Source: Pseudomonadota bacterium (lineage in GTDB: Bacteria > Desulfobacterota > Syntrophorhabdia > Syntrophorhabdales > Syntrophorhabdaceae). From it: a stretch of DNA of 64,000 nucleotides. The stretch lies in assembly GCA_026388275.1 (NCBI GenBank), contig JAPLKB010000042.1, positions 1-64,000 of the forward strand, in the 5' to 3' direction. The translations under genes were made by a program, and so were the position numbers. Shown here piece by piece: positions 33,848 to 58,476 of the stretch. The notes beneath the pieces are model-generated. The model was not told the DNA's origin. It saw nothing but the letters and a program-made list of their open reading frames with translations, and did no database searches. How positions within the stretch are numbered: the first letter of the stretch is position 1; every line of letters starts with the position of its first letter.

Positions 33848-33895
33848 ATTGGTGGGCCGTGGAGGATTCGAACCTCCGACCAATTGATTAAGAGT
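33848..33895. repeat. attL: 48-bp copy of the tRNA-Lys 3' region
   Basis: Identical over 48 bp to 40955-41002 (it begins attggtgggccgtggagg). It contains the T-arm and acceptor 3' side of the tRNA but not the 5' half, so it is a tRNA fragment and not a gene. The match ends where attR continues into the complete tRNA. Confidence 0.9.
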
Positions 33896-34011
33896 GAATA
33901 ACATATGTAATATCAAATAGTTATGGTGTTAGATGCTGTTTGCTCCTGCTTGCAGTTATGGAAAAAAGGATATACCGATATAGACGGTATTACCCCTTGT
34001 TTGACGGTTTC

Positions 34012-34030
34012 AGTTCACAGTTAGTTCACA
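34012..34030. promoter_or_regulatory. Left-arm integrase-type sites (two AGTTCACA)
   Basis: AGTTCACA occurs at 34012-34019 and 34023-34030, 11 bp apart and about 120 bp inside attL. The same octamer occurs twice inside attR. Tyrosine integrases of this class bind such short arm-type repeats on both sides of the core. Confidence 0.5.
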
Positions 34031-34197
34031 GGTAAAATTTATATTTTTACTTGTCATGGGTTGTAAACAAAACCGTGTCCATTGATTTTCGCAGTTTGAA
34101 GTTGTAATCTTTTTCAAGGGATAGGCAGCGCAGCCGATAAGGGGACTTCTCAAACCCCTTCCCTTGAATTTTTGAGAAACCACGATGAGAGGTGGCG

Positions 34198-34947
34198 ATG
34201 GAAAAAGAAAATAGAGATGATAGAGTTTCTTTCAGTTTTAAAAATATCAATAATCCAAATATCGGTTATGCAGCGGGGTATTCACCACCAACTCAATGGG
34301 ATAACGGCGAACATTGGTTAGATTTAACAGAAACCCCGAAGATGTTCCCACATTTTTACCATAAAGAAGCATGGCAGATATTTTACGATAACGCAACATT
34401 TGACGATATTCTTGTTGCAGCTGTTGGGGAAAACATTCTTGATGTAATGCATCGGGAAGGGCTACCGGACTTTGACGACCATAAAAAATGGACAGATAAA
34501 AAATTCCTTGAAGAACTTAGCCGATATCCTGATTGGCTTCAAATGATAGAGACAGGAGCCTTAGACAGATTTATCTTCATGATGAAAACTGCGGGGATAG
34601 CCAACAGTAAAAAAGCAGAACAGGTTTGTAATAATTTGAAGTATTATTTTATCCCGAAACGACCAGGAGGGTCTAAGGTCTACCCGGTTAATCTACATGG
34701 CTGTTATTACCTGCTTAAAATGTTATCGAAACATATCTCGAAAAAGTGCAACGAGTTTATAAAAGCCGGAGATAATCTTGATCGACAATCTTTTCAAGAA
34801 TATACTGATGAAAGCCGGGTTACAGATATTTCTGTGTATGATTTGGACATCCTCCTATCACAACCAACTCAATACGCAAAAAAACTACTTGAAAAAGAAT
34901 TATACGTCAGCATGGAAAGTCTGAAAAAAGAACTCAAAAAAGGGTAA
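34198..34947 (+). CDS. Unknown satellite cargo protein next to attL
   Basis: A 249-residue soluble protein that I do not recognise. It is rich in aromatic and charged residues (QWDNGEHWLDLTETPKMFPH, then HREGLPDFDDHKKW). No membrane segment, signal peptide or known catalytic motif is evident. Start at ATG 34198, with GAGAGG ahead, rather than GTG 34192. It lies alone between attL and the replication operon, the position where satellites commonly carry accessory genes such as anti-phage functions. That role is only inferred from position. Confidence 0.6.
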   Translation: MEKENRDDRVSFSFKNINNPNIGYAAGYSPPTQWDNGEHWLDLTETPKMFPHFYHKEAWQIFYDNATFDDILVAAVGENILDVMHREGLPDFDDHKKWTDKKFLEELSRYPDWLQMIETGALDRFIFMMKTAGIANSKKAEQVCNNLKYYFIPKRPGGSKVYPVNLHGCYYLLKMLSKHISKKCNEFIKAGDNLDRQSFQEYTDESRVTDISVYDLDILLSQPTQYAKKLLEKELYVSMESLKKELKKG

Positions 34948-35018
34948 ATTAAAGTTTCTATTTAACCTTTCTGTATGTTTATCAAAACACTATCATATTG
35001 TATGCTTTCCTTACAACA

Positions 35019-35044
35019 TAATGTAATACCCTAATATTACATTA
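35019..35044. promoter_or_regulatory. Perfect 10-6-10 inverted repeat upstream of the replication operon (operator candidate)
   Basis: Arms taatgtaata / tattacatta around ccctaa, ending 26 bp before the ATG at 35070. A CCTTACA heptamer (35009-35015) lies just before it. Position and symmetry suit a repressor-binding site controlling the replication genes. Confidence 0.5.
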
Positions 35045-35069
35045 TTATTTACCGGTAAGGAGCACGACT

Positions 35070-35339
35070 ATGAAAACTTTTTCAACCTTAGACATCTATT
35101 TATCTTCATTCCTTTTTCTTAATGGTGAGGAACCCGACCTTACAATCAAGAACAACAAAGTGGCTTTCAATTTCGATGCCAATGATAATGTTTACCGACT
35201 CATGGCAGAATTCAACACAAACCCGGAAATACCTTGTCTTGATCTGATAACGGCAATAAAAACGCTTAGAGGAAAGATGCTTTCAGCTAAAGAGAGCATA
35301 ACTGGAAACGGTGGACGATATGGATATAATCACAGATAA
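35070..35339 (+). CDS. Small satellite protein of unknown function
   Basis: An 89-residue hypothetical protein starting with a strong GTAAGGAG site. The N-terminus is hydrophobic and polar in turn (LDIYLSSFLFLNGEEPDL), with a core VAFNFDANDNVYRLMAEF that suggests a small alpha/beta fold. It overlaps the start of the primase-helicase gene by about 20 nt, so the two are translated together. Small proteins placed like this in mobile elements are often primase accessory factors, but nothing in the sequence proves it. Confidence 0.65.
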   Translation: MKTFSTLDIYLSSFLFLNGEEPDLTIKNNKVAFNFDANDNVYRLMAEFNTNPEIPCLDLITAIKTLRGKMLSAKESITGNGGRYGYNHR

Positions 35340-37023
35340 CGGGCAAACCGGATTTACAAAAAATGAAAATGAGTCTTTTTTACGTCGTGCTCTTGAATAT
35401 CAAAAAATGGGTTTTTCAATAATTCCATTAAGAATCGACAAAACGCCACACATTAAATGGGAAGCTTTTCAAAAGCAAAAAGCAAAGATCGGAGATGTTA
35501 CAGGTTGGTGGAAAAAATGGACTGATGCTAATATCGGCGTCGTGACAGGGTCTATATCCGGGCTTGTTGTGGTTGATGTCGATGATATGAAGATCGGGCT
35601 TTCAGAGCTTGCAAAGGTAATCCCGGTAGGCATTGAAACACCAACAGCGCAAACACCTTCAGGCGGACTACACTTTTATTTTAAACATCCGGACAGAAGA
35701 ATCGAATGCAATAGAAAAACTATTCCGGGTTGTGATTTTCAAGGCGATGGGGGCTACGTCGTTGCACCGCCTTCGTATTGTGAGTATATAAAGCATGGCA
35801 AGGATATAAAGGGTTCTTATACATGGGTTAAATCCCCTGATGATTGCACCTTTGCGCCTTTGCCTGAAGCATATATAAATGCATTTGATTCTTTTAATAA
35901 TAATTCTTTATATAAGGGTGGTAAGGTTGACACCTTACAACACCTTACAGACCTTACAGAACCTTACAGATATTTCATTGAAGGCCGCAGGGATGAGGAC
36001 ATTTTTCGTATTGCCAATGCACTTGTAAAGGCCAATTGTGCACCCGGTATTATACAGCATGTGCTTAATATACTTGCACTTTCTTGTGATCCACCTTTTC
36101 CTGAAAAAGACATTAATGCGAAAATTCAGTCAGCTTTACAGCGCGCGGCGCGACGTGAAAGAAACCTTTTGGAAGAAATTAGGACGTGGTGGACCTTACA
36201 AGAAGGTTACACAGACCTTACAAATATGAAACAGACCTTACAACTCCTTACAAAGGAAGAACGGAACCATGCTGATGTCATAATTCACAGACTCAAGGAG
36301 GAAGGTTTCATTGAGAAGTACGGTAACAAAGCAGGCGTTTATCGCCGTGTTGACAAGGATTTTGAGCGTGTCGACTTTCTCAGTGCTTCAGGAAGAGAGA
36401 CAAATATTAACCTACCGCTTGACTTAAACGACCTTGCAAAACTATACGCCGGAAGCATTATTGTCGTTGCCGGTAGCAAAGAGGCAGGCAAAACCGCGTT
36501 CCTTCTAAATATCGCTTTAGCTAATTTGGGTAAAAAGCGCATTGTTTATCTCAATTCTGAAATGGGAGAGGACGAGTTGAAAAATCGCCTTCTAAATTTC
36601 GGCAACGTAAAACTTGAGACCTGGGCGGAAAAAATGGAAGTATTCAGGCTAAAACCGACGCAGACCCCGGCGGACTTTATTGACGGATCGGACACTATCT
36701 GGATTGTAGATTATCTCGAAATTGCAGAGGACTTCTCAAAGATAGCCCTTCCTATAGCTCATGTTCACGGAAAGTTAGGAAATGGCCTTGCCTTTATCGG
36801 CCTACAGAAGGCAGATGATAAAGAGATAGGACGCGGGGCCGACTTCAGTAGAGAAAAGGCGCGCTTGTATATTTCTCTTGATTGGGATTCGGAACGCCGA
36901 CAGAATCGGATAAAAATTATTGATTGTAAGGCATGGAGAGACAGGAACCCGCGCGGGCTTTACAGATATTACAAATTGGTAAAGGGGGCTGGCATTATTC
37001 CACAAGGGAATTGGCAGGAATGA
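35320..37023 (+). CDS. Primase-polymerase (Prim-Pol) fused to a RecA-like helicase
   Basis: A 567-residue replication protein. Residues about 15-190 are a bifunctional Prim-Pol domain: GVVTGSISGLVVVDVDDM carries catalytic aspartates, TPSGGLHFYF and GGYVVAPPS are family motifs. A helical PriCT-like region (RDEDIFRIANALVKANC) follows, then a short winged helix, then a RecA/DnaB-like ATPase with Walker A VVAGSKEAGKTAFLLN and Walker B TIWIVDYLE. It should prime and unwind the element's own DNA. ATG 35320 preferred over GTG 35311. The linkers on both sides of the PriCT region are encoded by arrays of CCTTACA repeats. Confidence 0.85.
   Translation: MDIITDNGQTGFTKNENESFLRRALEYQKMGFSIIPLRIDKTPHIKWEAFQKQKAKIGDVTGWWKKWTDANIGVVTGSISGLVVVDVDDMKIGLSELAKVIPVGIETPTAQTPSGGLHFYFKHPDRRIECNRKTIPGCDFQGDGGYVVAPPSYCEYIKHGKDIKGSYTWVKSPDDCTFAPLPEAYINAFDSFNNNSLYKGGKVDTLQHLTDLTEPYRYFIEGRRDEDIFRIANALVKANCAPGIIQHVLNILALSCDPPFPEKDINAKIQSALQRAARRERNLLEEIRTWWTLQEGYTDLTNMKQTLQLLTKEERNHADVIIHRLKEEGFIEKYGNKAGVYRRVDKDFERVDFLSASGRETNINLPLDLNDLAKLYAGSIIVVAGSKEAGKTAFLLNIALANLGKKRIVYLNSEMGEDELKNRLLNFGNVKLETWAEKMEVFRLKPTQTPADFIDGSDTIWIVDYLEIAEDFSKIALPIAHVHGKLGNGLAFIGLQKADDKEIGRGADFSREKARLYISLDWDSERRQNRIKIIDCKAWRDRNPRGLYRYYKLVKGAGIIPQGNWQE
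35933..35968 (+). repeat. Iteron-like array 1 (four CCTTACA) inside the primase gene
   Basis: CCTTACA begins at 35933, 35943, 35952 and 35962, about one helical turn apart. The copies occupy three different reading frames (codons acc-tta-caa, ctt-aca, cct-tac), so the DNA word rather than the protein is repeated. Confidence 0.7.
36194..36252 (+). repeat. Iteron-like array 2 (four CCTTACA) inside the primase gene
   Basis: CCTTACA begins at 36194, 36216, 36236 and 36246, with spacings of 22, 20 and 10 bp that keep helical phase; a variant GGTTACA lies at 36205. Together with array 1 it is a candidate replication origin of the element. Confidence 0.65.
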
Positions 37024-37047
37024 ATAATACAAAAAGAGGTGAAATGA

Positions 37048-37395
37048 ATGGAAAACATTAGTTACAAAGACATGGATGTTATCGGCGGCGAAGAAGTTAG
37101 AATATCAAGGGAGCAGAATCTCTACCCGGATATGCAGAACGGGCAGCACTTTACAACTCTTGAAGCATTGCCGGGCTATCTTGCCGGACAGATCAGCACG
37201 TCAAGCAATCCGACAGTGACAATGCAGCATCTTTCCGAACAGCTACTACAGGGCGGCCTTATGATGCCGCAGGAGTATGTTCGTTTCCAAACTCTTACCA
37301 ATGAGATGAAGGCAGCAAACACAGACGAAAGCAAAACCGAAATTCTGAAAAGAACAACAGTTTTCTTAAACGGGCTACGGCCTAAAAAAATTTAA
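37048..37395 (+). CDS. Unknown satellite protein (115 aa)
   Basis: A 115-residue soluble hypothetical protein with a good AGAGGTGA ribosome site, 24 bp after the primase-helicase. It is acidic at the N-terminus (YKDMDVIGGEEVRISREQN) and helical at the C-terminus (FQTLTNEMKAANTDESKTEI). No recognisable domain, no cysteines, no membrane segment. Its place between the replication gene and the terminase-like gene is where satellites keep packaging-interference or capsid-resizing genes, so it is worth testing for that, but there is no sequence evidence for it. Confidence 0.65.
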   Translation: MENISYKDMDVIGGEEVRISREQNLYPDMQNGQHFTTLEALPGYLAGQISTSSNPTVTMQHLSEQLLQGGLMMPQEYVRFQTLTNEMKAANTDESKTEILKRTTVFLNGLRPKKI

Positions 37396-37407
37396 AGGGG
37401 GTTTCAC

Positions 37408-37983
37408 ATGGAAGATGTTTTAAAAAGGATTGAATCGACTTTGGCCTCATCAAATGCAGCCGGTAATCTTGCAGGGTTTGCAGAGGACAGGACAGAAACA
37501 GAGAAAACAAAATCTGATATTGAATCTGATATTTTCTTACTTCAGGCAGACCATAAAACTCTATCCGATTCCCTCAGTTCTGCTACAGATGAAAAAGAGA
37601 TCGACGAAGGGACCTTAAAGCTAATTCAGATTGAGAAGAAGATTGCACTTAAAACAGAGAAACTACCGGCTTTAATTGCATCGTTGGCAGAGACCGAACG
37701 ACAGGAAAAAGAATACAGGTTAGCTCACAAGCTCGATGCTGATTTATGGCGGCCCGTCCGGGAACCGATTCAACAGCAGGCGGCGGTGTTGCATCACAAT
37801 CTAATAAAGGCGTTGGAAGCAATAAACGATTTTGATAGTGAAATTTACAAACTCTTCCACAAGTACAATGCAAGCCCGAACAAGTCAGAGCTTGAAGCTA
37901 TGCTCATGACTTTTATCGGTCCTAAAACCGGCTTTTATATTGATTTGGTGCCTGTTCACGATAAGCGCAAAATGACAGAGTAA
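37408..37983 (+). CDS. Unknown coiled-coil satellite protein (191 aa)
   Basis: A 191-residue hypothetical protein that is mostly alpha-helical, with long heptad-like stretches between about residues 25 and 100 (ETEKTKSDIESDIFLLQADH, LIQIEKKIALKTEKLPALI). This suggests a coiled coil and oligomerisation. A more globular C-terminus follows. Strong ribosome site AAAGGGGG. A scaffold- or capsid-size-like role would fit a satellite, but so would many others, and the sequence gives no specific motif. Confidence 0.65.
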   Translation: MEDVLKRIESTLASSNAAGNLAGFAEDRTETEKTKSDIESDIFLLQADHKTLSDSLSSATDEKEIDEGTLKLIQIEKKIALKTEKLPALIASLAETERQEKEYRLAHKLDADLWRPVREPIQQQAAVLHHNLIKALEAINDFDSEIYKLFHKYNASPNKSELEAMLMTFIGPKTGFYIDLVPVHDKRKMTE

Positions 37984-37996
37984 GGAGGATAACATT

Positions 37997-38206
37997 ATGA
38001 AAACAATCACATTTCTAACAGAAGTAAGGCAGCATGGCAAACAGGGTCATAGATTTGCAGGTTCAGCTTTATCAAAATACAGACTTTGTACTTTTGGCAG
38101 ATCGTTAGAGAGAAGTGATGAGCCTTACGGGGAAGTGGTTATTCCGATTAAGATGGTGGAAGAGCAGGGCTATCCAACAAGTATAACATTGAATTTTGAG
38201 AAGTAG
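37997..38206 (+). CDS. Small basic satellite protein (69 aa)
   Basis: A 69-residue protein rich in basic residues near its N-terminus (FLTEVRQHGKQGHRFAG), followed by predicted beta strands (GEVVIPIKMVEE). It has a textbook TAAGGAGG ribosome site 8 nt before the ATG and sits 13 bp after the coiled-coil gene and 8 bp before the terminase-like gene. No family recognised; a small nucleic-acid-binding protein is a reasonable guess. Confidence 0.6.
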   Translation: MKTITFLTEVRQHGKQGHRFAGSALSKYRLCTFGRSLERSDEPYGEVVIPIKMVEEQGYPTSITLNFEK

Positions 38207-38214
38207 GGGGTAAC

Positions 38215-38763
38215 ATGCAACGTGTCAATGATGATGAACTTTTAAAAATGCTTGACGATAAGATACCACAAAAAGATATTGCAAAGCACTTTGGGGTGTC
38301 AAACGGTTGGATTACAAAACGCAAGCAGTTATTGCAGACGCCAGAACCGGAAAACTTTTCAAAATTGACTGAGCAGCAAAGATGTTTTGTTATTGAAAAG
38401 GTTAAAGGCCGAAGCAATGTTGATGCGGCTTTTACTGCTTATAACGCCACATCAAGGGATAGTGCTCGAAATATCGCTTCTGACTTGATGCAGAAGGATG
38501 AAATAAATTTATCAATCCGGGAATTAATGGAAAACCACGGGTTGACAAGAATCTATCGCATTAAGAGGCTTAAACAACATGTTGACAATAAGTCTCCTGA
38601 TATTTCCCTGAAAGCATTACACCAGTCATGGCAGTTAGGTGGGGACTATGCGCCAACACAAACTAAGAATCTCAACCTCAATGTAGATGTAATCCCGGAG
38701 TTAGATCAAGCACTGATTGAAAGATTCAGGATAAAGCCTATTTTACCTGATGAAAATGAATAG
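38215..38763 (+). CDS. Terminase small subunit-like protein (TerS)
   Basis: A 182-residue protein. Residues about 1-45 form a helix-turn-helix (IPQKDIAKHFGVSNGWITKR). About 55-120 follow the pattern of phage small terminases: LTEQQRCFVIEKVKGRSNVD, then AAFTAYNATSRDSARNIASD and LMQKDEINLSIREL. Small terminases recognise the packaging site and recruit the large-subunit motor. No large subunit is encoded in the element, so it would have to redirect the motor of a helper phage, as satellite TerS proteins do. Similarity is by motif only, and a plain DNA-binding regulator is the alternative. Confidence 0.65.
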   Translation: MQRVNDDELLKMLDDKIPQKDIAKHFGVSNGWITKRKQLLQTPEPENFSKLTEQQRCFVIEKVKGRSNVDAAFTAYNATSRDSARNIASDLMQKDEINLSIRELMENHGLTRIYRIKRLKQHVDNKSPDISLKALHQSWQLGGDYAPTQTKNLNLNVDVIPELDQALIERFRIKPILPDENE

Positions 38764-38855
38764 CGCGTTGGGAAGGGGATATACGATGGAGGGCGAAAAG
38801 TTAATTTTCCCCCTCCCCCCCCTCGATCCGTGACACCCCTAAAGGAGGTTTTGAA
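38764..38855. other. C-rich tract after terS, possible packaging site
   Basis: The 92-bp gap contains an unusual pyrimidine run (ttttccccctcccccccctc at about 38804-38823) followed by cgatccgtgacacccc. Composition is unlike the rest of the element. Phage cos or pac sites lie next to terminase genes, which is the only reason to suspect one here. Confidence 0.3.
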
Positions 38856-39125
38856 ATGATGGATAATATTGAAGATGTTTGCAGTTATTATTATAAGTGT
38901 GAAGTAAACATATGCCCGCTTGACCCTGGTATAGCTGACAGGAATTATATTTCAGGTGAAAAGGTATGCAGGAAGATTCTTGATTACCTCGAAGGCAAAC
39001 CGACAAAACTCGACGAACAGATACGAAAAACAGAACATATCTGGAAAGCAAAGTACGGGAAGAAACTCGAAGCACGTTTAAATAGTAGAATGCAGATAAG
39101 AGAAGCATTCAGAAAGGCAGTTTGA
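38856..39125 (+). CDS. Small cysteine-containing satellite protein (89 aa)
   Basis: An 89-residue hypothetical protein with three cysteines near the N-terminus (CSYYYKCEVNICPLD) plus one in EKVCRKIL, possibly a small metal-binding site, and a helical C-terminus (IRKTEHIWKAKYGKKLEARL). The ribosome site AAAGGAGG is strong. It lies between the terminase-like gene and the excisionase-like gene. Not recognised. Phage and satellite genomes carry many such short Cys-containing proteins with unknown roles. Confidence 0.6.
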   Translation: MMDNIEDVCSYYYKCEVNICPLDPGIADRNYISGEKVCRKILDYLEGKPTKLDEQIRKTEHIWKAKYGKKLEARLNSRMQIREAFRKAV

Positions 39126-39210
39126 AAGCGTCATACAGCAGTCATTGTTTCACATTGTGAGTATGACATGACTATTAGTATTCATGACAATTTGAGGTCA
39201 TAGAAAGGAT

Positions 39211-39501
39211 ATGAAAACCATACTTGAACCGGAAGATATTCAGGCAATAGCTGAAAAAGTTATTGAACTTATCCGGCCTTTATTATCACAAAATAAGCCT
39301 TCTGAATCCATTATGGATAAGAAAGGTTTATCTGAATATCTTCAAGTTGACGTTTCATGGATTGACAAGAACCTTTACCAATTGCCGCACTTCAAGGCCG
39401 GGAAGTATGTCCGATTCAGGCAAGTCAACATTGACAAGTGGATAAACAGTATTGAAAAGACCCCTTTACCTTATCTTAAATTGTTGAAAAATAACAGGTG
39501 A
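39211..39501 (+). CDS. AlpA/excisionase-type helix-turn-helix protein
   Basis: A 96-residue DNA-binding protein. The second half matches the MerR-like excisionase/AlpA fold: MDKKGLSEYLQVDVSWIDKN, then FKAGKYVRFRQVNIDKWI, where the final RFR..DIDKWI pattern is typical. A predicted helix at the N-terminus precedes it. Such proteins act as directionality factors that turn integrase towards excision and as activators of integrase genes. It is encoded about 350 bp before the integrase, behind an AAAGGAT ribosome site. Confidence 0.75.
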   Translation: MKTILEPEDIQAIAEKVIELIRPLLSQNKPSESIMDKKGLSEYLQVDVSWIDKNLYQLPHFKAGKYVRFRQVNIDKWINSIEKTPLPYLKLLKNNR

Positions 39502-39597
39502 ACCCTTGATTGTAAGTCAAATTACTGTAAAAAAGATACTTATAAAATCAGGTATTTACAATGCAATGTGAAGTGAATTGTGAACTCAATATTTTAC

Positions 39598-39626
39598 TTG
39601 ACTTCTAACTATGTTAGATATATAAA
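39598..39626 (+). promoter_or_regulatory. Promoter of the XRE repressor with an operator dyad in its spacer
   Basis: TTGACT (39598-39603), 17-bp spacer, TATAAA (39621-39626). The spacer contains the perfect dyad TCTAAC-tat-GTTAGA (39604-39618). Transcription should begin near 39633, at or next to the ATG at 39634, implying a leaderless or nearly leaderless mRNA and repressor autoregulation. Confidence 0.55.
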
Positions 39627-39633
39627 TATGATT

Positions 39634-39879
39634 ATGGATGCTTGGACACCAGAAAGGATTAAAGGATTGAGAAATAGATTTAATTTATCTCAAGTGGCTT
39701 TAGGCGGGCTTACCGGTGTATCAGGCAATTATATCTGGATGTTAGAAGGAGGTGATAAAACTAAAAAGCCGTCAAAAACACTGTGTCTGTTGTTAGATCG
39801 TATTGAAAAGGAATTACAGGAAAATGAAAACGAAAAGGAGGTTATGAGACATGGCACGAAAGATAAAAGGTCTTTATAA
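39634..39879 (+). CDS. XRE-family (Cro/CI-like) transcriptional repressor
   Basis: An 81-residue helix-turn-helix protein (81 codons from ATG 39634; ATG 39628 is also possible). The HTH is WTPERIKGLRNRFNLSQVAL, then TGVSGNYIWMLEGGDKTKKP. No ribosome site precedes either ATG, but a promoter with an operator-like dyad ends just before it, so translation may start at the mRNA 5' end. The 3' end overlaps the integrase gene by 29 nt. Likely the maintenance repressor of the element, controlling its own promoter and perhaps the operon at 35070. Confidence 0.75.
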   Translation: MDAWTPERIKGLRNRFNLSQVALGGLTGVSGNYIWMLEGGDKTKKPSKTLCLLLDRIEKELQENENEKEVMRHGTKDKRSL

Positions 39880-40933
39880 ACGTGGTAATGTCTGGTGGTG
39901 CTGTTATAAGGATTTAACCGGGAAGATTGTCCGGGAAACAACAAAGCACGCGGATTATGACAAAGCGGTAGAATTTCTCACAGAAAAAAAATTCAATGTT
40001 CAAAGAGGAATAGAACCTGAAGTTATTCAAAATATCAATTATACCTTTAAGGAGCTTGTTGTTGAATATCTGAAATGGTGTGAAAGACAACGGAGCTTTG
40101 ATAGTAAAAAGATATTCATAAAACAATTGCTTGATGCTTTCGGACATATGCCTTTGAAGAATTTCAACACCATGATGGTTGAACAATTCCAGACAGATCG
40201 TATTCAAAAAGGAAACAAACCGGCTACAGTCAACAGGCTTGTTGCTACACTGAAACATTCATTTACAAAGGCTTATGACTGGAACATGATAACCGAAACA
40301 ATATTGAAAAAGGTAAGAAAGGTGAAGCTTCTGGAAGAAAATAACCGGCGACTGCGTTATTTATCAAAAGAAGAATGTCAGGCCTTAGTAAATGCCTGTG
40401 ATGCTCATTTAAAGCCGATTGTTATTACAGCATTAAACAGCGGTTGCAGGAAGGAAGAAATATTAAGCTTGAAGTGGGATCAGATAGATATGAAACATGG
40501 TTTTATTCTGTTAGATATAACAAAGAACGGCGAAAGAAGGGAAATTCCTATCAATGGCACTTTGCGTACTACCTTTGAAGCATTACCTCGAAGGCTTGAC
40601 GGCGGTTATGTATTCTTTGATCCAAAGAACGGCGCAAGGTATCAGGAAGTCAAAAGGTCATTTGCTACAGCATTGAGAAAAACAGGAATAAGAGACTTTC
40701 ACTTTCACGACCTTAGACATACCTTTGCTTCACATCTTGTTATGGCAGGCATAGATTTAACAACAGTTTCAAGGCTTTTAGGACACAAAAGCCTTGCAAT
40801 GACTTTGAGATATTCACATTTATCACCACAACATTTCACAAAGGCGGTTGACGTACTCGACAACGTTTTAAATGATAATTTTAATTCCACTTCACATTTA
40901 GTTCACAATCAAAGGATAGTTCACAATGGCTAA
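39851..40933 (+). CDS. int: Tyrosine recombinase / integrase of the element
   Basis: A 360-residue phage-type integrase. An N-terminal arm-binding region (KIKGLYKRGNVWWCCYKDL) and a SAM-like core-binding domain precede the catalytic domain, with Arg in NSGCRKEEIL, the box HDLRHTFASHLVMAGIDL and LLGHKSLAMTLRYSHLS carrying the active-site Tyr. The ribosome site AAAGGAGG lies inside the repressor gene, which it overlaps. The stop is 21 bp from attR, and its last codons hold two AGTTCACA arm-type sites. It integrates the element into tRNA-Lys. Confidence 0.95.
   Translation: MARKIKGLYKRGNVWWCCYKDLTGKIVRETTKHADYDKAVEFLTEKKFNVQRGIEPEVIQNINYTFKELVVEYLKWCERQRSFDSKKIFIKQLLDAFGHMPLKNFNTMMVEQFQTDRIQKGNKPATVNRLVATLKHSFTKAYDWNMITETILKKVRKVKLLEENNRRLRYLSKEECQALVNACDAHLKPIVITALNSGCRKEEILSLKWDQIDMKHGFILLDITKNGERREIPINGTLRTTFEALPRRLDGGYVFFDPKNGARYQEVKRSFATALRKTGIRDFHFHDLRHTFASHLVMAGIDLTTVSRLLGHKSLAMTLRYSHLSPQHFTKAVDVLDNVLNDNFNSTSHLVHNQRIVHNG
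40900..40925. promoter_or_regulatory. Right-arm integrase-type sites (two AGTTCACA)
   Basis: AGTTCACA at 40900-40907 and 40918-40925, within the last codons of int and about 30 bp from attR. They mirror the pair at 34012-34030. An inverted copy (TGTGAACT) lies at 39570-39577 before the repressor promoter. Confidence 0.5.
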
Positions 40934-40954
40934 TGCTCATAGATGGTTGATTTT

Positions 40955-41002
40955 ATTGGTGGGCCGTGGAGGATTCGAACCTCCGACCAATTGATTAAGA
41001 GT
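40955..41002. repeat. attR: 48-bp core repeat in the intact tRNA-Lys
   Basis: Identical to 33848-33895. It covers the 3' half of tRNA-Lys, including the anticodon loop edge. Insertion keeps the tRNA complete at this end. Confidence 0.9.
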
Positions 41003-41033
41003 CAACTGCTCTGCCAGACTGAGCTAACGGCCC
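40957..41033 (-). tRNA. tRNA-Lys (CTT anticodon), integration target
   Basis: Complete cloverleaf with encoded CCA: acceptor GGGCCGT/ACGGCCC, D-arm GCTC...GAGC, anticodon loop CTCTTAA (anticodon CTT), T-loop TTCGAAT. The element's attR lies in its 3' half, and a truncated copy is at 33848-33895. Confidence 0.95.
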
Positions 41034-47578: not shown

Positions 47579-49108
47579 ATGGCCGATAACAACGAACTGG
47601 AAAGAACCCTCTGGGCTACGGCAGATAAGCTGCGCAACAATATGGATGCGGCACAATATAAACACGTTGTCCTGGGATTGATCTTTCTCAAATACATTTC
47701 CGACGCCTTCAATGACCTTCACGAGAAATTGAAAGAAGGTAAAGGGGAATCTGAAGGCGCAGACCCGGAAGACAGGGATGAATACCTTGCCAAAAATATT
47801 TTCTTCGTTCCGGAAAAGGCCCGTTGGCAATTCCTCCAGGACCATGCTAAGCTGCCGGAGATAGGCAAGTTCGTTGACGAAGCCATGGAGGCAATCGAGA
47901 AAATCAATCCATCACTCAAGGGTGTTCTGCCGCAAATTTACGCCGATGCTGATCTGAACAAACAAAGGCTCGGTGAATTGATTGACCTTATTGCAACTAT
48001 CGGATTTAACCAGGATGGCCATACATCAAAGGATCTGCTCGGCAGAGTATATGAATACTTTCTTGGCCAGTTTGCTGACGCAGAAGGTAAAAAAGGCGGC
48101 CAGTTCTGGACTCCTCAAAGCATCGTGAAGCTCCTTGTCGAAATGCTGGAACCTTACAAAGGGCGTGTCTATGACGGCTGCTGCGGCTCAGGCGGCATGT
48201 TTGTCCAGAGCGAGAAATTCATTCTCAGCCATCAGGGCAATATCAAGGACATCTCGATTTACGGGCAGGAATCGAACCCGGCAACTCTCCGTCTTGCCAG
48301 AATGAATCTTGCCATTCGAGGCATAGACGCCCAACTGGAAGTCGGGGACACCTTTCTGAATGACAGGTTCAAGGACAAGGATTTGAAATTCGATTTCATT
48401 CTTGCCAATCCACCCTTCAACATAAGCGATTGGAGCGGCGAGCTTCTGCGCGATGACAGCCGCTGGAAATACGGTGTTCCGCCAACAGGTAATGCCAACT
48501 ATGCCTGGCTTCAGCACTTTGCCCATAAACTGAGTCCCAGCGGTACTGCCGGAATTGTTCTTGCCAACGGCAGTATGAACAGCAATACAGGTGGAGAGAG
48601 TGAGATACGGAAGAACATGATCGAAGCGGGATTGATAGATTGTATGGTTGCCCTTCCCTCACAGCTTTTCTACAATACCATGATTCCAGCCTGTCTCTGG
48701 TTTCTGGCACGGAACAAAACCAATCACAAATTCCGTGACCGCTCGAAAGAGATTCTCTTTATTGATACCCGCAAACTCGGCACAATGCTCAACCGTCGCA
48801 ACCGCGAATTGACCGATGCCGATATAGCCCTCATCGCAGGCACATACCACAGTTGGCGCAGCAAGGATGGTAAATACGAAGACAAAGCAGGTTTCTGTAA
48901 ATCCGCCACAATTGAAGAGGTGCAAAATAACGGACATGTATTAATGCCCGGACGTTACGTGGGTACAGAGGAAGAGATAGACGACGGCATTCCTTTTGAT
49001 AAGAAGATGAAGTCTCTTACTACAAAACTGGCTGAGCAGTTTGCCAAAAGCTCGGAATTGGAGAAGACCATTCGGGAGAATCTCAAAGGGATTGGATATG
49101 AGTTTTAG
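47579..49108 (+). CDS. hsdM: Type I restriction-modification methyltransferase subunit
   Basis: A 509-residue N6-adenine DNA methyltransferase. The N-terminal helical domain ([20 protein letters not shown]) is typical of HsdM. The SAM-binding motif is [15 protein letters not shown] and the catalytic motif is [13 protein letters not shown]. It forms the HsdM2-S modification enzyme with 50548-51780. The ribosome site ATAAGGAG precedes the ATG. The stop overlaps the following AlbA_2-type gene by 11 nt, the first of several stop-start overlaps that tie the operon together. Confidence 0.95.
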
Positions 49109-50444
49109 GGAAGGCGAAATGATTGAATTTAAGAAAAGCCTTACCTCCCTCAAGGAGGGCTTGATTTCAATCTCGGCAATCCTCAATAAACATGGAGCAG
49201 GTGAACTTTGGTTCGGCATTGCCCCTGACGGCAAACCAACAGGCCTTGTTATAAATGAAAAGACACTCCGTGATATTTCGCAATCCATTGCAGCGCACAT
49301 TGAACCCAGGATTTACCCCCAGATTACCCCGGAAATACTTAACGGAAAGACCTGTATTAAGATAGCCTTTTCAGGAAGGGAAAGGCCCTATTTCGCATAC
49401 GGCAGGGCTTACATGCGCGTGGCCGATGAGGACAGACACCTTACTGCAAAAGAACTTGAAAACCTGATTCTTGCCAGAAACCGCGAGGCGCTCCGCTGGG
49501 ATAATGAACCCTGCAAAATCTCCATCAAAGAACTTAATGAAAGGAAAATCAGGGCATTTGTAAAGCGGTCCGGTCTGGTATGGGACAATGCCTCCAATGT
49601 ACTGGAGAAACTGAGCCTTATGCAGGATGGACAATTGCTCAATGCAGCTCCTCTCTTTTTTGCCAAAAAACCTACGCTTCAACTGCGCTGCGCTGTTTTT
49701 GCCTCAACGGATACGGCAACAATTATTGACCGTCACGATTACGAAGGAGACATTCTTGCACTTATCGAAGAAGCGCAGAAATACATTCTCAAAAATATTC
49801 ACATCGGCATGAAACTCGATGGCCTCTACCGCGTGGATGTTCCTGAAATTTCGGTGGCAGCTATGCGCGAGGCGATTATCAACGCATTCTGCCATCGTGA
49901 CTATCACGACCCGGACTATGTGCAAATAGCCATTTTCAAAGACCGTGTTGAAATCCGTAATCCCGGCAAGTTGTATGGTAATCTGACAATTGAGAAAATA
50001 CGCAAAGGTAACGTGTCTCAGCGAAGGAATCCCCTCATTGCGGAATTGCTCCGCCGTATTCAGATGGTTGAGACCTGGGGACGGGGCATGCGCCTCATCC
50101 TTGCTGAGGAGCCGACTGTCCAATTCAGCGAAGTAGCCCATCTTTTTATCGCCGCTTTTAGCAGGCCCTCATTCGCTGAACCGGATAAGACTATCGATAA
50201 AACCACAGCCCCAAAGGAACCGGAACAAATCACCGAAGAAAGTTCGGGGAAAAGTTCGGGGAAAACAGAAGAACAGATCATTGCGCTGTTTTCGGTTAAT
50301 GGAAAGCTGACCATTCCTGAACTGGCGGAAACCCTCGGTGTTACAACCCGCGCGATAGAGAAACAGATCGCCCGCCTACGCGGCCAAGGCCGTCTGCGTC
50401 GCGTGGGTCCGGCCAAAGGCGGGCACTGGGAGGTGGTGAAATGA
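49098..50444 (+). CDS. AlbA_2/Schlafen-type putative DNA-binding ATP-binding regulator within the hsd operon
   Basis: A 448-residue protein. The first 130 residues match the AlbA_2 (Schlafen-type) domain: [38 protein letters not shown] and [20 protein letters not shown]. The middle has [40 protein letters not shown] and [20 protein letters not shown], typical of the ATP-binding C-terminal domain of these proteins. The end is a winged helix ([20 protein letters not shown]). I start at ATG 49098 (MSFREGE), overlapping hsdM by 11 nt. Such genes are often found inside type I restriction loci as regulators, though effector roles are not excluded. Confidence 0.85.
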
Positions 50445-50547
50445 CCGGACAGCTTTGCGGCAACTTGTTCCAGTGTGGTTTTATGGCCTTTCCAATCCGG
50501 GATTCACTGCGCCCCGAATTGAAATATTGGGCTACCATGGTGCAGCG

Positions 50548-51780
50548 ATGAGTAGGGCGGGGTGGAAAAGATACAAACTTGAAGATATCCTCTCAAAGAC
50601 AATTGATAACAGAGGAAAGAATCCGCCATTCTCCGATACGGGGTATTCGTATATCGATACCACCTGTATTGTTGGCGACAATAGATATCCCAGCTACGCT
50701 TTGGTTAGAAAGTATGTTTCAAAAGAAACGTATGAAAACTGGTTTCGCAGTGGCCATCCAAGAAGAAATGATTTACTTATAGCCACTGTAGGGGCAAATA
50801 TTGGGAAGATTTGTTTGATGGACGACACGCCTGCCTGCATAGCACAAAATACGATTGGATTACGTATTGATGTGGCTGTTGCCGACCCTATTTTTGCTTA
50901 CTATGTGCTTAGTAGTAATGAAATCCAGTCGAATCTGAAATCGTTGGATATCGGATCAGCTCAGCCGAGCATAAAGGTGCCACATCTTCTCAACCTATCC
51001 GTTGCCCTCCCTCCGCTCTCAACTCAGAGCCGAATCGCGGCCATCCTCTCCGCTCTGGATGATAAAATAGAACTCAACCGTCAGATCAATGCCACACTGG
51101 AAGCCATTGCACAGGCCATTTTCAAGGAATGGTTTGTTGATTTAAATTTTCCCGGCGCAACAGGCGAAATGGTTGAGAGTGAGTTGGGGATGATTCCACA
51201 CGGCTGGTGGGTGGAAAAATTAGGGGAGATAGTAGAAGTAAAAGGTGGAACAACGCCAAGTACCAAAGAGGAAAGGTTTTGGAATGGTGAAAACTATTGG
51301 GCAACACCAAAAGACCTTTCAAACTTAAGTTCACCCATTTTATTGACCACAGAAAGAAAAATTACAACAGAGGGTGCCAAGCAGATAGGTTCGGGTATTC
51401 TCCCTTCGGGCACTTTACTTTTATCTTCAAGAGCGCCAATAGGCTATTTGGCAATTTCAGATATACCCGTTTCAATCAATCAAGGTTTTATCGCTATTAA
51501 CGCCAAGGCAACGTCAAACTTATTTATTTTGCATTGGCTAAAAGAGAATATGGAAACTATCATTGGCAGAGCCAATGGCTCCACATTTTTGGAAATTTCA
51601 AAAACCAATTTCCGAGAGATTGAATTAGTTATTCCTGATACACAGATTACCCAGATGTTTGAAAAAGTCATTGCCCCAATTTTTGAACAGATAAAAGTCA
51701 ATATGCAAGAATCTATAACTCTTGCCACCCTGCGTGATAGTCTTTTGCCTAAGTTAATGAATGGAGAAATTGACTTATGA
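50548..51780 (+). CDS. hsdS: Type I restriction specificity subunit
   Basis: A 410-residue protein with two target-recognition domains. The first begins near GWKRYKLEDILSKTIDNRG. A central conserved helix (LSTQSRIAAILSALDDKIEL, then NATLEAIAQAIFKEWFVDLN) separates it from the second (LGMIPHGWWVEKLGEIVEVK), and the C-terminal repeat is ATLRDSLLPKLMNGEI. It defines the DNA sequence methylated and cut. ATG 50548 is the first start that gives a normal HsdS N-terminus. It ends in ATGA, overlapping the next gene by 4 nt. HsdS domains recombine readily, so the specificity cannot be predicted. Confidence 0.9.
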   Translation: MSRAGWKRYKLEDILSKTIDNRGKNPPFSDTGYSYIDTTCIVGDNRYPSYALVRKYVSKETYENWFRSGHPRRNDLLIATVGANIGKICLMDDTPACIAQNTIGLRIDVAVADPIFAYYVLSSNEIQSNLKSLDIGSAQPSIKVPHLLNLSVALPPLSTQSRIAAILSALDDKIELNRQINATLEAIAQAIFKEWFVDLNFPGATGEMVESELGMIPHGWWVEKLGEIVEVKGGTTPSTKEERFWNGENYWATPKDLSNLSSPILLTTERKITTEGAKQIGSGILPSGTLLLSSRAPIGYLAISDIPVSINQGFIAINAKATSNLFILHWLKENMETIIGRANGSTFLEISKTNFREIELVIPDTQITQMFEKVIAPIFEQIKVNMQESITLATLRDSLLPKLMNGEIDL

Positions 51781-52823
51781 GCGAAGAGCTGCGAATTGAA
51801 TATTTAGATAATCAAGAGTTTAATGATCAGTTCGATTCCGATAATCCTGAAATCAAGATTGGGGACCTGACGCCTTATAAAGCCAGTAAAGTGCTTTATT
51901 GTGTAGATTACGATGCTTATTTAGATGCAATTCAAGATTATACACAGCGAAATGAAGATGCAAAAAAGGATTCGGTATTCTATTACTACCCGCAACCAAT
52001 TGCTTATTATTATCAACAATCGGAAAACGGCTACAGCAATAATAATCACCGCCTACAGTTACTGCGTTCGACATGGGAAGCTATAGTTTATACCCTTTAT
52101 GCAATCGTAATGGGCGAATCTCGTAGTAAGAATTTCCCGCTTAGAAATATAGCAACAATAGACTCTACCGGAAATCCAGATTTGTCTTTCAGTTCATATT
52201 TCAGTGATAGCCTTGCGCAGAGACTACTCATAATAGAAAGAATTTTGAAATACGGTATCGACAACAATGTTCTGTTGTTGAGTAACGAAATTATCCAGTT
52301 ACCTGTTATACAAAAAATAAGACGATTAAATCAGGAAAGAAATGGTTTCATGCATACGGCGGCTCTATCGGAGGAACAGGCTTCTCAAAGACATTTGGAG
52401 CTCACCCCCGAAGTATTGGAAGTTCTATCAGATTTAAGTGAATTGGCATCAATAGACGTTCTGCATTATATAGGAAACGAAGGATCTGCAACAGCATTAA
52501 AATGCGAAATTTTTAAGAGCTTTACATTGGCGCGGCAAAATTCACCAACTATAAAAATAACTTCGGCACAATTACATGTTCTTGCTAATGAGTTAAATCA
52601 CCAGAATATTCTTGCATATTATAAAGGAAATTTATTCAGCATTACCCCATTTTTCTATTTCAAGTCAGAAGCGAATGGAAATATTACGAACCTTTGTTAT
52701 TTCAAACGAAGACATTCCAGCACAAGATACGAGTTTGAAATTGTCACCCGCTCAGATGTATACGAAGTGGATGGAACAGCCTTTCAAGATAGGATTAACG
52801 AATTGCGAGGTTTAATTATATGA
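51777..52823 (+). CDS. Unknown protein with a HEPN-like R-X4-H motif, embedded between hsdS and hsdR
   Basis: A 348-residue protein I do not recognise as a named family. A helical segment around residues 145-220 includes [26 protein letters not shown] (188-193) fits the R(N)X3-4H ribonuclease motif of HEPN domains. The N-terminus is acidic with tyrosine-rich stretches ([12 protein letters not shown]), and the C-terminus (about 265-345) looks beta-rich. Start and stop each overlap neighbours by 4 nt (ATGA), so it is translated with hsdS and hsdR. A HEPN RNase acting when restriction fails would fit, but this is inference from one motif and position. Confidence 0.6.
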
Positions 52824-55800
52824 GTGCAAAATCACAAGTAATCGCAGAGTCTGAAATCGAACAAATTGCTCTTGAGATTCTCCGCGGTGAGAATCGATAT
52901 AACGACATCCTATACGGCCCCGACATCTCCGAAGGCCCTGCCAAAGAGCGCGAATACACCGAAGTTATCCTTCAAACCCGCCTGCGGGCCGCCATTGACC
53001 ATATCAACCCGACCATGCCCATTGACGCACGAGACGATGCCTTCAAAATGGCCATCCGTACTACCTTCACGACCGTAATTGACAACAACGAAACCTTTCA
53101 TCGCCTCCTTACCGAAGGGGTGGACGTCAAGTTCGGCATCGGTGAAGGTAAATCAAAAAGTGATAAAGTCAGACTCATCGATTTTGACAACCCGGAAAAC
53201 AACGAATTCGTGGCTGTCAATCAGTTCACGGTTTTAGAAAACCACAACAACAAGCGGCCTGACATTGTCATTTTTATTAATGGTATGCCCCTTGTGGTAA
53301 TGGAACTGAAAAATCCTGCCGATGAAAATGCAGACGTGCAGGCAGCCTTCAGTCAGCTCCAGACCTACCAGCAGCTTATCCCGTCACTCTTTACCTACAA
53401 TACTTTTCTCGTTATCAGTGACGGCTGGTTTGCGAAGATCGGTACCATCTCCAGCGATTACTCACGTTTTATGGACTGGAAGAGCGCCGACGGCAAAACT
53501 ATCGTGGATACCAAGCATCAGTCCGAACTGGAACCCATGATAAAGGGGCTTCTTAATAAAGCAACCATCCTTGATGCAATCCGCCATTTTATTGTCTTTG
53601 AAAAAACCAAAGAGGCAACAATCAAAAAGATTGCCGCCTATCATCAGTATTATGCCGTTAATCGGGCCATTACTTCCACCATCCGTGCTTCTGTGGAACC
53701 GGGGTCTTTTGTGGCTGAGCATCCCGCAGAGTACGGCTTTCCAAGCGTTGACGAGCAGGCCCAGGGTGACAAGCGGGCAGGTGTTGTCTGGCATACACAG
53801 GGCAGCGGTAAAAGCCTTTCTATGGTTTTTTACGCGGGCAAGCTCGTGCTGGCAGAAGAGATGAACAACCCCACCATTCTGGTACTCACTGACCGGAATG
53901 ATCTTGACCAACAGTTATTTGAGACATTTGGCAATTGCCAGCAGCTTCTCCGCCAGACCCCGACTCAGGCAGCCAATCGGGACGATCTTCGAAAGCTTCT
54001 GTCTGTGGCATCCGGCGGCATCATCTTTACAACCATTCAAAAGTTCTTGCCTGAAGAAAAAGGCGGAACATATCCGCTCCTCACTGATCGGCGCAACATT
54101 GTCGTCATTGCCGACGAGGCCCACAGAAGCCAGTACGATTTTATTGACGGTTTTGCCAGACACATGCGCGATGCCCTGCCAAAGGCTTCCTTCATCGGAT
54201 TTACCGGGACCCCTCTTGAAAAGGAGGACAAGAACACCCAGGCTGTTTTCGGTAATTACATCGACATCTACGACATCCAGCAAGCTGTGGAAGATGGGGC
54301 AACCGTACCCATTTATTATGAGAGCCGCCTTGCCCGGATCAGTCTTTCCGAGGCCGACCGCAAAGTACTCGATGAGCGCGTGGAAGAGGTAACGGAAGAC
54401 GACGAGTTAACAGAACGACAGAAACGCTTTGTAAAATGGGCAAGCAAAGAGGCTGTTGTGGGCAGTGCAAACAGACTAAAACAGGTTGCCGCCGATTTGG
54501 TCAAACACTTTGAAGCCCGGCTCAGTGCGTCGGAAGGTAAAGGTATGATCGTCTGCATGAGCCGTCGAATCTGTGTTGGCTTGTACGGGGAAATCCTTAA
54601 ATTGCGGCCCTATTGGTACAATTCAGAAGATGACAAAGGCGCGATCAAGGTGATTATGACAGGGTCTGCCAGTGATCCCCTTGACTGGCAGGAACATATA
54701 CGCAACAAGGAGCGCCGCAAAGCAATCGGCAACAGACTGAAAGACCCCAAAGACCCGCTTAAGCTCGTTATTGTCCGCGATATGTGGCTCACCGGATTTG
54801 ATGTGCCATGCCTCCACACCATGTATGTTGACAAACCCATGAACGGCCATAACTTGATGCAAGCCATTGCCCGCGTCAACCGAGTCTTTGGCGACAAGAA
54901 AGGCGGGCTTATAGTTGATTACATCGGCATTGCCCAGGACCTGAAAAACGCCTTGGCAAACTACACCGCAATCCGCCCTGATAGGGGCGAGATCGCCTAC
55001 GATCTGGAGAAGGCTGTTGACAGGATGAAGGAATTGTACGAAATTGCCTTGGATATGTTCGACGGCTTTGACTATCGCCGATACTTTACGTTGGAATCAA
55101 AGGCAAAGCTGGAATTCATTCTCGATGCTGCCAACTACATCGAAGAACTGACCGGAGAAAAAGACGGGAAAGTGGTAAGAAATGGCAAGGAACGCTTCAA
55201 GGGAAACGTGATCAGCCTGCAGCAAGCTTTTGGCCTTGCCGTGCCCCACCCCGATGCCATGAAAATACGTGATGATTTGGCACTCTTCCAGGCTATTAAA
55301 GCCCGCTTCGCCAAGTTTGATGACCAGACCAGAACTCGGACTAATCAGGAGATCGAGACAGCCATCAGACAGATTATCAATGATGCCATCATCTCCGAAG
55401 AGGTGGTGGATGTCTTCGATGCAGCCGGAATCAAGAAGCCTGATATATCAATTCTGTCCGATGAATTTCTTGCCGAAATTCAGGGAATGAAGCGGCAAAA
55501 CCTTGGGTTGGAACTTCTTAAACGACTCCTCAATGACGAGATTAAAACCCGCGGAAAGACCAATCTCGTACAAGGCCGCAAGTTCTCCGAAATGCTTGCC
55601 GATGCTGTCAAGCGGTACCAGAGTGGGCTGATTGATTCGGCAAAGATGATTGATGAACTGATTAGGCTGGCGAAAGACATTAGAGAGGCCGATAAGCGCG
55701 GCGAAAAGATGAATCTCCGTCCCGATGAATTGGCGTTCTACGACGCTCTTGCTGATAACCCAACTGCTGAAGCTGTGCTTGGCGACTTCACGCTCAAACT

Positions 55801-56026
55801 GATTGCCCATGAGCTTGTGGAAACTGTGCAGAAGAATACCTCCATTGACTGGCAGGTAAAAGAAAGTGTCCAGGCTAAGTTACGGGTAATGGTAAAAAGG
55901 ATATTGAGAAAATACAAATACCCTCCCGATGATCCAACAACAGGCGAATACACTGTTTCCGTCACAAAAGTGCTGGACCAAGCCGAAGCATTGGCCGATT
56001 TATGGTCAAGCGATGAAGGACGATAA
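52820..56026 (+). CDS. hsdR: Type I restriction endonuclease/translocase subunit
   Basis: A 1068-residue HsdR. The nuclease domain of PD-(D/E)XK type is near residues 140-175 ([20 protein letters not shown]). The helicase motor starts with Walker [17 protein letters not shown], motif [13 protein letters not shown] and motif [12 protein letters not shown], and continues to [17 protein letters not shown] (motif VI). The C-terminal helical region interacts with HsdM. The length is standard. It is translated with the preceding gene through an ATGA overlap and ends the operon. No obvious frame break, so the system looks intact. Confidence 0.95.
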
Positions 56027-57639: not shown

Positions 57640-57723
57640 ATTTAGAGAATGTAATTTTAAATAGGGAAGGAATTTAACAAATGCCAAAACCTAACACATC
57701 AATTGAAAGAAAGGGTTAGGACT

Positions 57724-58440
57724 ATGACTATTAAAGAGAGAATTATGGAGTTCATAAAAGACAGATACTATTTTCACGTCGATGACCTCAAGCGTTATTT
57801 AGAAAATAAAAAGGTTCAGGTCAAAGACGACAGCCTGAAAAAGACGCTGACACGTCTCAAGATGGATAAAACAATTTACCAGGCGGGGCGGGGTTGGTAC
57901 TCCACCATAGAAAATGTTGTCCAAGTAAACACTGAACCGATAGAACCAATAATTGGTTTGATCAGAGAGAAATTGCCCCTCCTTGATGTGTCGTGCTGGA
58001 GCACAATTCAGATAAGGGAGTTTTTTCATCACCTTCCAAATCAATTTGTCACGTTCATGTATGCCGACAGAGATGCCCTTGCAAGCCTGAAAGATCTTCT
58101 ATCAGAGCACGGATTTATGCCCTATTTAAATCCAGGGAAAAAAGAAGCCGAGAAATACATCGAACTGAGTGAAAAGATCGTTATCTTAAGACCTTCCGTA
58201 TCGCAGCAAAGGCCGAAAAGCAGTTTCTTTACACCAGTCGAAAGGATACTTGTAGATTTGTTCGTGGAGTCAAAAGCCCTTAACCTATTGGATAACAGAG
58301 AGGTTATTCGCATTGTGTCAGACATAGCGACCAACTATCGTATCAATGTTGGGGAAATGCTTGATTATGCTGACAGAAGGGGAATAAAAGAAAGTATAAG
58401 AAAAACTATCCCGGAACTAAAGTCCACCAATGCCAAGTAA
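57724..58440 (+). CDS. AbiEi-type antitoxin/transcriptional repressor (type IV toxin-antitoxin)
   Basis: A 238-residue protein. The N-terminal winged helix (IKERIMEFIKDRYYFHVDDL, SLKKTLTRLKMDKTIYQAGR) matches the DNA-binding end of AbiEi-like proteins, and the rest is the alpha/beta C-terminal part (FVTFMYADRDALASLKDLLS). I start at ATG 57724 (TTAGGA upstream). It is followed after 36 bp by an AbiEii-like nucleotidyltransferase. In AbiE systems this protein represses the operon and counteracts the toxin indirectly. Confidence 0.7.
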   Translation: MTIKERIMEFIKDRYYFHVDDLKRYLENKKVQVKDDSLKKTLTRLKMDKTIYQAGRGWYSTIENVVQVNTEPIEPIIGLIREKLPLLDVSCWSTIQIREFFHHLPNQFVTFMYADRDALASLKDLLSEHGFMPYLNPGKKEAEKYIELSEKIVILRPSVSQQRPKSSFFTPVERILVDLFVESKALNLLDNREVIRIVSDIATNYRINVGEMLDYADRRGIKESIRKTIPELKSTNAK

Positions 58441-58476
58441 GAACATAATTTGGCATAAGAGGACAAAAGGTAAAGG

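Follow-up and report, generated by a model that had tools for sequence, protein, structure and literature searches.

What kind of mobile element is a small island that encodes a terminase small subunit (TerS) and no terminase large subunit (TerL), capsid or tail? The question arises at positions 33848-41005 of the stretch of DNA that we analyzed (the window: 64,000 nucleotides, positions 1 to 64,000 of contig JAPLKB010000042.1, assembly GCA_026388275.1, from a Pseudomonadota bacterium that GTDB places in the Syntrophorhabdaceae of the Desulfobacterota), where eleven open reading frames (ORFs) are inserted at a tRNA-Lys gene. An initial annotation, made from the letters of the window, had read this island as a satellite resembling the phage-inducible chromosomal islands (PICIs). 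The similarity of its TerS to terminases, and the lack of TerL and capsid genes at other loci with this TerS, support that reading: the element is probably a PICI-like phage satellite. The observations behind this are its integration, an empty site in a congener, the homology of TerS, the lack of genes for morphogenesis, a set of genes that recurs elsewhere and phased iterons inside a replication gene.

Integration at tRNA-Lys

The island measures 7,107 bp from the start of one flanking direct repeat to the start of the other, the repeats being 48 bp long when exact and 51 bp with one mismatch (98% identity). In G023, the only congener searched, about 250 bp of the left flank and the repeat align in order, with small gaps, to the lead-in of tRNA-Lys, and the right flank continues from there at 84% identity, the island being absent: an empty site. 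The element is integrated at tRNA-Lys, and the same site is unoccupied in the congener. All eleven ORFs lie on the plus strand and read toward tRNA-Lys, following one another as listed in Table 1 from orf251 to the integrase. The direct repeats, the intact tRNA-Lys on one side and the single coding strand, all pointed out in the initial annotation, are borne out. Scans of the island for promoters and terminators gave matches at chance level only.

The source assembly (3.5 Mb, 99.5% complete) holds a single copy of the whole island and one further match to it, 237 bp of integrase sequence on contig C16. This piece (G000:C16:704-938, L002) is the end of a second, related integrase gene with 74% DNA identity, beside a tRNA-Ala near the contig end, and is probably another island or a remnant. 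At the tRNA-Lys locus of relatives (L071, L072 and L078), att-like partial copies of the tRNA lie 9-11 kb upstream in two, with sensor-kinase cassettes between, and in the third a different integrase adjoins the same tRNA-Lys. Judged from these sequences, the locus is an integration hot spot across relatives.

Relationship of TerS to phage terminases

The Pfam Terminase_2 model matches residues 51-121 of the window TerS with 27.7 bits, above its cut-off of 26.1. PHROG families of terminase small subunits match the protein as well, phrog_51 with an E-value of 3e-11. In an alignment of the 12-member TerS family, Terminase_2 and three PHROG TerS families are matched by 11 of the 12 proteins; phrog_51 is likewise matched by 11, at best with 1.8e-15. 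Comparison of the family by hhalign with seven aligned phage proteins that carry a TerS annotation, each encoded directly 5' of or overlapping TerL, yielded a probability of 96.2% (E 2.4e-9), against a maximum of 0.7% in 50 column-shuffled controls. By these profiles the window protein is a genuine homologue of terminase small subunits; the initial annotation had named a lack of such similarity as what would overturn its reading, and the similarity was found. A helix-turn-helix (HTH) segment at residues 6-40, N-terminal to the Terminase_2 region, is kept across the family. Two candidate relatives were set aside: the IMG/VR match L079, whose sequence reads as that of a GIY-YIG endonuclease that has an HTH tail, and a weak match in G327 (L054; 28 bits over 39 residues), which was excluded from the family.

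Neither ORF reading nor scans with Pfam and PHROG profiles recognized TerL, portal, capsid, tail or lysis genes inside the island, so that the absence of TerL, capsid and tail reported at the outset holds and extends to the portal.

A family of TerS islands

A search of the genome contigs with the single TerS sequence gave no matches, and an alignment-based search was needed there. Relatives, 27-47% identical over the alignment, were found in 10 of the 395 genomes sampled from the phylum (source genome included), as well as in related genomes and named metagenome-assembled genomes of Nitrospinota, Nitrospira and Deltaproteobacteria. These amount to 13 loci besides that of the window, with one record kept where a locus was recorded twice (L033/L022, L034/L023 and L036/L049), and they are spread over many bacterial families of three phyla: Desulfobacterota, Nitrospinota and Nitrospirota. 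Twelve contain or abut a tRNA gene, the other being L053 on a short contig. Both att repeats, 46-63 bp long, were found in six (Table 1), and the tRNAs targeted across the TerS islands are those for Gln, Arg, Cys, Phe, Leu and Lys.

Integrase, AlpA-like, XRE-like and DUF5659-like families recur alongside TerS, and the window integrase is 57-59% identical to those of L022 and L023. The replication protein varies: DUF3987 in L022, CHC2/Toprim with AAA_25 in L032, AAA_25 in L024, a D5/NrS-1-like protein in L052 and Prim-Pol in the window. TerS is the constant part of these islands and replication the exchangeable part, which would be expected if TerS is what makes the element a satellite. Within what was sampled, the family is seen solely in such islands, with no member in INPHARED and none confirmed in IMG/VR. 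The initial annotation held that TerL or capsid genes in homologous copies would point to a prophage remnant or an integrative plasmid. None was seen at any of the 13 other TerS loci, six of them att-bounded, but such genes do lie beside two relatives of the Prim-Pol protein, described below; the objection thus holds for the replication gene and not for copies of the island. None of the ten genomes tested has Terminase_3, and the matches to Terminase_6N and TerL_ATPase (in G318 and G035) fall on contigs other than those of the islands.

Two further features of these islands deserve mention. Runs of small predicted lipoproteins, possibly cargo, lie on the opposite strand between the tRNA and terS in the congener TerS islands L020 (10425-12081) and L021 (9883-11713). 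A second small HTH protein of 122-149 residues, with no clear family, is encoded in L022 (12808-13176), L029 (14187-14609), L050 (5830-6279) and L051 (9136-9576); it is directly 5' of terS in L022, L050 and L051, and occupies the position of terS in L029.

Iterons inside the replication gene

The predicted initiator is a fusion of a Prim-Pol domain, a PriCT-like segment, a winged helix and a RecA-like helicase. The Prim-Pol and RecA-like parts of this architecture had been recognized in the initial annotation and are supported here (phrog_19 on the RecA/DnaB-like part, 8e-10; the Pfam DnaB_C match stays under its cut-off). The winged-helix order of elements corresponds to residues 286-346 of a structure model of low confidence. 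The gene contains eight copies of the 7-mer CCTTACA in two phased arrays (Table 1), whereas codon shuffles that kept the protein (n=300) gave at most four. Arrays with differing motifs are present in all six Prim-Pol genes of the bacterial order, with 5-9 copies against null maxima of 4-5. Array 2 falls on identical alignment columns, with a spacing of 21-22/20/10 bp, in the window, L026 and L029; L025 has it on those columns too, along with additional copies. The test was extended to 25 further non-redundant Prim-Pol homologues, taken from contigs of IMG/VR, from one other genome and from the archaeal virus MetMV. In 15 of them the copies are more numerous than codon shuffling would give (fraction <=0.03), and 14 of these 15 have their copies on either side of the PriCT-like segment. 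Not every replication gene contains such iterons: by count they were not found in the other 10 of the 25, nor in the replication genes of L022, L023, L024, L050 and L052. Four TerS islands with other replication genes (L020, L021, L032 and L053) have repeat clusters near the 3' end of the replication coding sequence.

The iterons leave an imprint on the protein: its winged helix has one dipeptide, LT for the window, VT for L025, ST for L102 and TT for L108, repeated at as many as four fixed positions. An earlier idea, that both arrays encode linkers, was rejected, as array 2 corresponds to the first half of the winged helix. Homologues that share a motif are more alike in the winged-helix part 3' of the array (52% versus 35%; 0 of 3000 permutations), less strongly so in the PriCT and RecA parts, and not in the Prim-Pol domain. 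This suggests that the winged helix could be the reader of the iterons, the sequences compared being few and related. AT richness between the two iteron sets is modest (0.54-0.66). The two arrays are likely to form a replication origin inside the gene of the initiator itself. If so, origins of this Prim-Pol family would be predictable from sequence alone, and more than ten natural pairs of iteron and initiator would be at hand for direct tests of DNA-recognition rules.

Prim-Pol relatives and neighboring elements

Within the bacterial order, BLAST identifies five relatives of the Prim-Pol protein at 35-45% identity. L027 and L029 are tRNA islands that carry it without a TerS of the window type; L025 has a DNA methylase-like gene and other cargo. 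In L026 (5403-12662) the relative is accompanied by a lone phage capsid gene, and in L028 (1-6099, at a contig end) by an HNH-TerL pair, its TerL being 92% identical to that of L075. The integrases of the L026 and L028 elements are only 26-29% identical to that of the window, and the presence of capsid or TerL genes next to such distant integrases fits swapping of replication modules.

L075 itself (G035:C56, 109-10506) is a complete 10.35-kb island at tRNA-Arg, with 48-bp repeats, in the same bacterial family. It encodes an integrase, a DnaD-like loader, HNH, TerL, a protease-capsid fusion and a portal, with no tail genes, and resembles a capsid-forming PICI. Genome G035 holds both L075 and the TerS island L022.

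The best phage relative of the Prim-Pol protein, annotated as hypothetical, comes from Methanosarcina virus MetMV (L087 1525-3207; 32% identity over 97%), and its gene has CGACCAC iterons at the same two places. The host of MetMV is a methanogen, the partner type of syntrophs.

Other genes of the island and its surroundings

The AlpA-like and XRE proteins proposed in the initial annotation are supported: each profile match is weak taken singly, and both families recur in related islands, the AlpA-like one in most of them. Besides the genes so far named there are six small proteins and not the five first counted, one of them DUF5659-like. That family has 11 members across islands, directly 5' of the replication gene in most. 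For orf251, orf115, orf191 and orf89, relatives were looked for in other islands and none was found.

The window adjoins F-type ATPase genes and, by reading of the sequences, holds hydrogenase, formate dehydrogenase and 2-hydroxyacyl-CoA dehydratase-like genes. This content is in keeping with an anaerobic syntroph, and the anaerobic deltaproteobacterium-like host first proposed is borne out. On the right of the island, type I restriction-modification-like genes (47579-56026) are followed by an AbiE toxin-antitoxin-like pair (57703-59547), both recognized by sequence reading.

Table 1. Features of the tRNA-Lys island, in window coordinates, and related TerS islands bounded by att repeats
Feature	Position	Strand	Remarks
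attL	33848..33898		copy of the 3' part of tRNA-Lys, 48 bp exact (51 bp, 98%); left flank and repeat match the unoccupied locus in G023
orf251	34192..34947	+	function unassigned; no relative found in other islands
DUF5659-like small protein	35070..35339	+	Pfam 6e-5, 23.2 bits against a cut-off of 23.6 (just below)
Prim-Pol / PriCT-like / winged-helix / RecA-like helicase	35311..37023	+	predicted replication initiator; Pfam Prim-Pol 1e-29
Iteron array 1	35933..35968	+	4x CCTTACA, 9-10 bp spacing; codons of the Prim-Pol/PriCT linker
Iteron array 2	36194..36252	+	4x CCTTACA, 22/20/10 bp spacing; codons of the winged helix
orf115	37048..37395	+	function unassigned
orf191	37408..37983	+	probably coiled-coil (by reading the sequence); function unassigned
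orf69	37997..38206	+	conserved (57%) solely in Prim-Pol island L027
TerS	38215..38763	+	extra N-terminal HTH and Terminase_2 DNA-binding domain
orf89	38856..39125	+	function unassigned
AlpA/excisionase-like HTH protein	39211..39501	+	phrog_15534 1e-6, phrog_66 0.0015; Pfam HTH_17 only 0.022
XRE-like HTH regulator	39580..39879	+	phrog_8 1e-5; 29-bp overlap with the integrase start
Tyrosine integrase	39851..40933	+	phrog_1 2e-72, bearing out the initial annotation; reads toward the tRNA
attR	40955..41005		inside tRNA-Lys; from repeat comparison
tRNA-Lys (CTT)	40957..41033	-	intact target gene
L020			TerS island at tRNA-Gln, 8.0 kb
L022			TerS island at tRNA-Arg, 9.2 kb
L023			TerS island at tRNA-Cys, 9.8 kb
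L032			TerS island at tRNA-Phe, 9.0 kb
L035			TerS island at tRNA-Leu, 10.9 kb
L052			TerS island at tRNA-Leu, 10.4 kb

Proposed life cycle and alternative explanations

From this gene set we infer induction, excision, iteron binding, packaging and transfer. The XRE-like and AlpA-like regulators would keep the integrated island silent in tRNA-Lys until infection by a helper phage, or its induction, upon which AlpA and the integrase may excise it; AlpA is known to drive induction of Gram-negative PICIs (PMC6092414) and excision in the phage-inducible chromosomal minimalist islands (PICMI; PMC10803314). The Prim-Pol/helicase protein would bind the iterons within its own gene through the winged helix and replicate the circle to concatemers. 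TerS might then recognize a site on the satellite and recruit the TerL and procapsids of the helper, as a result of which satellite DNA could be packaged and transduced; the TerS of Staphylococcus aureus pathogenicity islands (SaPIs) directs headful packaging of the island (PMC6092414).

Several observations weigh against this picture. The Terminase_2 similarity is limited to the DNA-binding half of TerS, its C-terminal third being unmatched, and together with the extra N-terminal HTH this makes a regulatory role possible. PDB sequence searches with TerS and a fold search with a low-confidence monomer model gave only HTH regulators and weak matches to SF6 TerS. No gene for capsid remodeling or phage interference is identifiable in the island. 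No helper was found: the source genome has no TerL of the Terminase_3, Terminase_6N or TerL_ATPase families, and no TerL-bearing phage with this TerS turned up in INPHARED or IMG/VR. With these three large families missing, the source genome itself probably does not house the helper phage; satellites have been reported in genomes without any possible helper (PMC11389934).

Could TerS instead be a DNA-binding regulator, or an accessory of replication or partition, in an integrative plasmid-like island that moves by transformation or generalized transduction? The two HTH segments of TerS, the regulators and ParB that head its matches in a PDB sequence search, the failure to find a TerS of this family beside TerL, and the occurrence of Prim-Pol domains on plasmids too (at no more than 44% query coverage among the matches listed) would all suit such an element. 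We nevertheless regard it as unlikely in view of the highly specific similarity to annotated phage TerS, the set of integrase, AlpA and TerS in 7-11 kb, which is satellite-like, and the fact that no relaxase, partition or conjugation genes were recognized in the island. That the island is a decayed prophage, which kept integrase, replication and terS and lost its late genes, seems quite improbable: relatives of its Prim-Pol protein do occur in phages and in the TerL- or capsid-bearing elements L028 and L026, yet no late-gene remnants were seen here, and the same small gene set, again lacking late genes, is met repeatedly with its frames intact and with att sites at different tRNAs. Independent decay to one same gene set is unlikely given this recurrence across many families and three phyla. 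A satellite TerS that blocks packaging by the helper instead of redirecting it, making an anti-phage island, has a precedent of sorts in satellite proteins that act on helper TerS (proteobacterial Rpp, cited in PMC10690885); it is highly improbable here, as the part of TerS that shows the similarity is its DNA-binding domain, suggestive of DNA binding and not inhibition. Pfam and PHROG scans of the island turned up no P4-like or PLE satellite families, no models dedicated to these having been run.

Taking the element as a PICI-like satellite, we lean, with some reserve, toward a wider proposal. An undescribed lineage of TerS satellites may span anaerobic and subsurface Desulfobacterota, Nitrospirota and Nitrospinota; its Prim-Pol module would belong to a family of replicons found also in bacterial phages and in an archaeal virus. 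In this family the initiator gene would contain the origin in the form of two iteron arrays in helical phase, and the iteron motif would change between homologues and stamp a repeated dipeptide on the winged helix that reads it. A limited search of the literature, which does not prove absence, found no description of satellites in Desulfobacterota/Deltaproteobacteria. What goes beyond a routine find is the occurrence of a TerS island lineage in phyla for which that search found no described satellites, and an in-gene origin with motif turnover. If the proposal is right, helper-dependent satellites that redirect packaging through TerS extend well past the described groups, into syntrophic and subsurface bacteria; the phages of these bacteria are almost unknown, and the satellite TerS would offer a handle for finding helpers.

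Comparison with known systems

Under the definition of capsid-forming PICIs cited in PMC10690885, a likeness exists through the Prim-Pol relatives in elements with HNH-TerL (L028) or capsid (L026); the window island itself, lacking HNH, TerL, portal, protease and capsid, falls outside it. The PICMI of Vibrionaceae are likewise very small islands with an integrase, AlpA and primase, in which the start of the integrase gene is overlapped by that of a small protein (PMC10803314). They differ in being inserted at fis and not tRNA-Lys, in the TerS that the window island carries, and in having DUF3987/DUF5906 in place of Prim-Pol, although DUF3987/DUF5906 do occur in related TerS islands.

With PICIs of the Gram-negative and SaPI types the window island has in common an integrase, a putative AlpA-like activator, a primase/initiator, two iteron sets, an optional TerS, the absence of structural genes and genes on one strand (PMC6092414). 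Unlike in those, its integrase gene comes last and points to the tRNA, its hosts belong to other phyla, and it has no known interference or capsid genes. In described PICI origins, two iteron sets surround an AT-rich region directly 3' of the initiator gene (PMC6092414); in the window they lie within it. We call the element PICI-like and not a strict PICI since its gene order and origin position differ from those described, and since we infer its induction and encapsidation. Of the features that define PICIs, it has a specific attachment site with an integrase, no structural or lysis genes, genes exclusive to such islands (as sampled) and unidirectional transcription.

The origin of phage lambda lies inside gene O, where the iterons are part of the sequence that encodes the initiator binding to them. 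The window iterons are likewise within the coding sequence of an initiator predicted to bind them. The two initiators are, however, unrelated, and in the window two phased arrays flank a conserved domain and their motif turns over between homologues. The layout looks like a PICI-type origin of two arrays that sits in the gene of its initiator.

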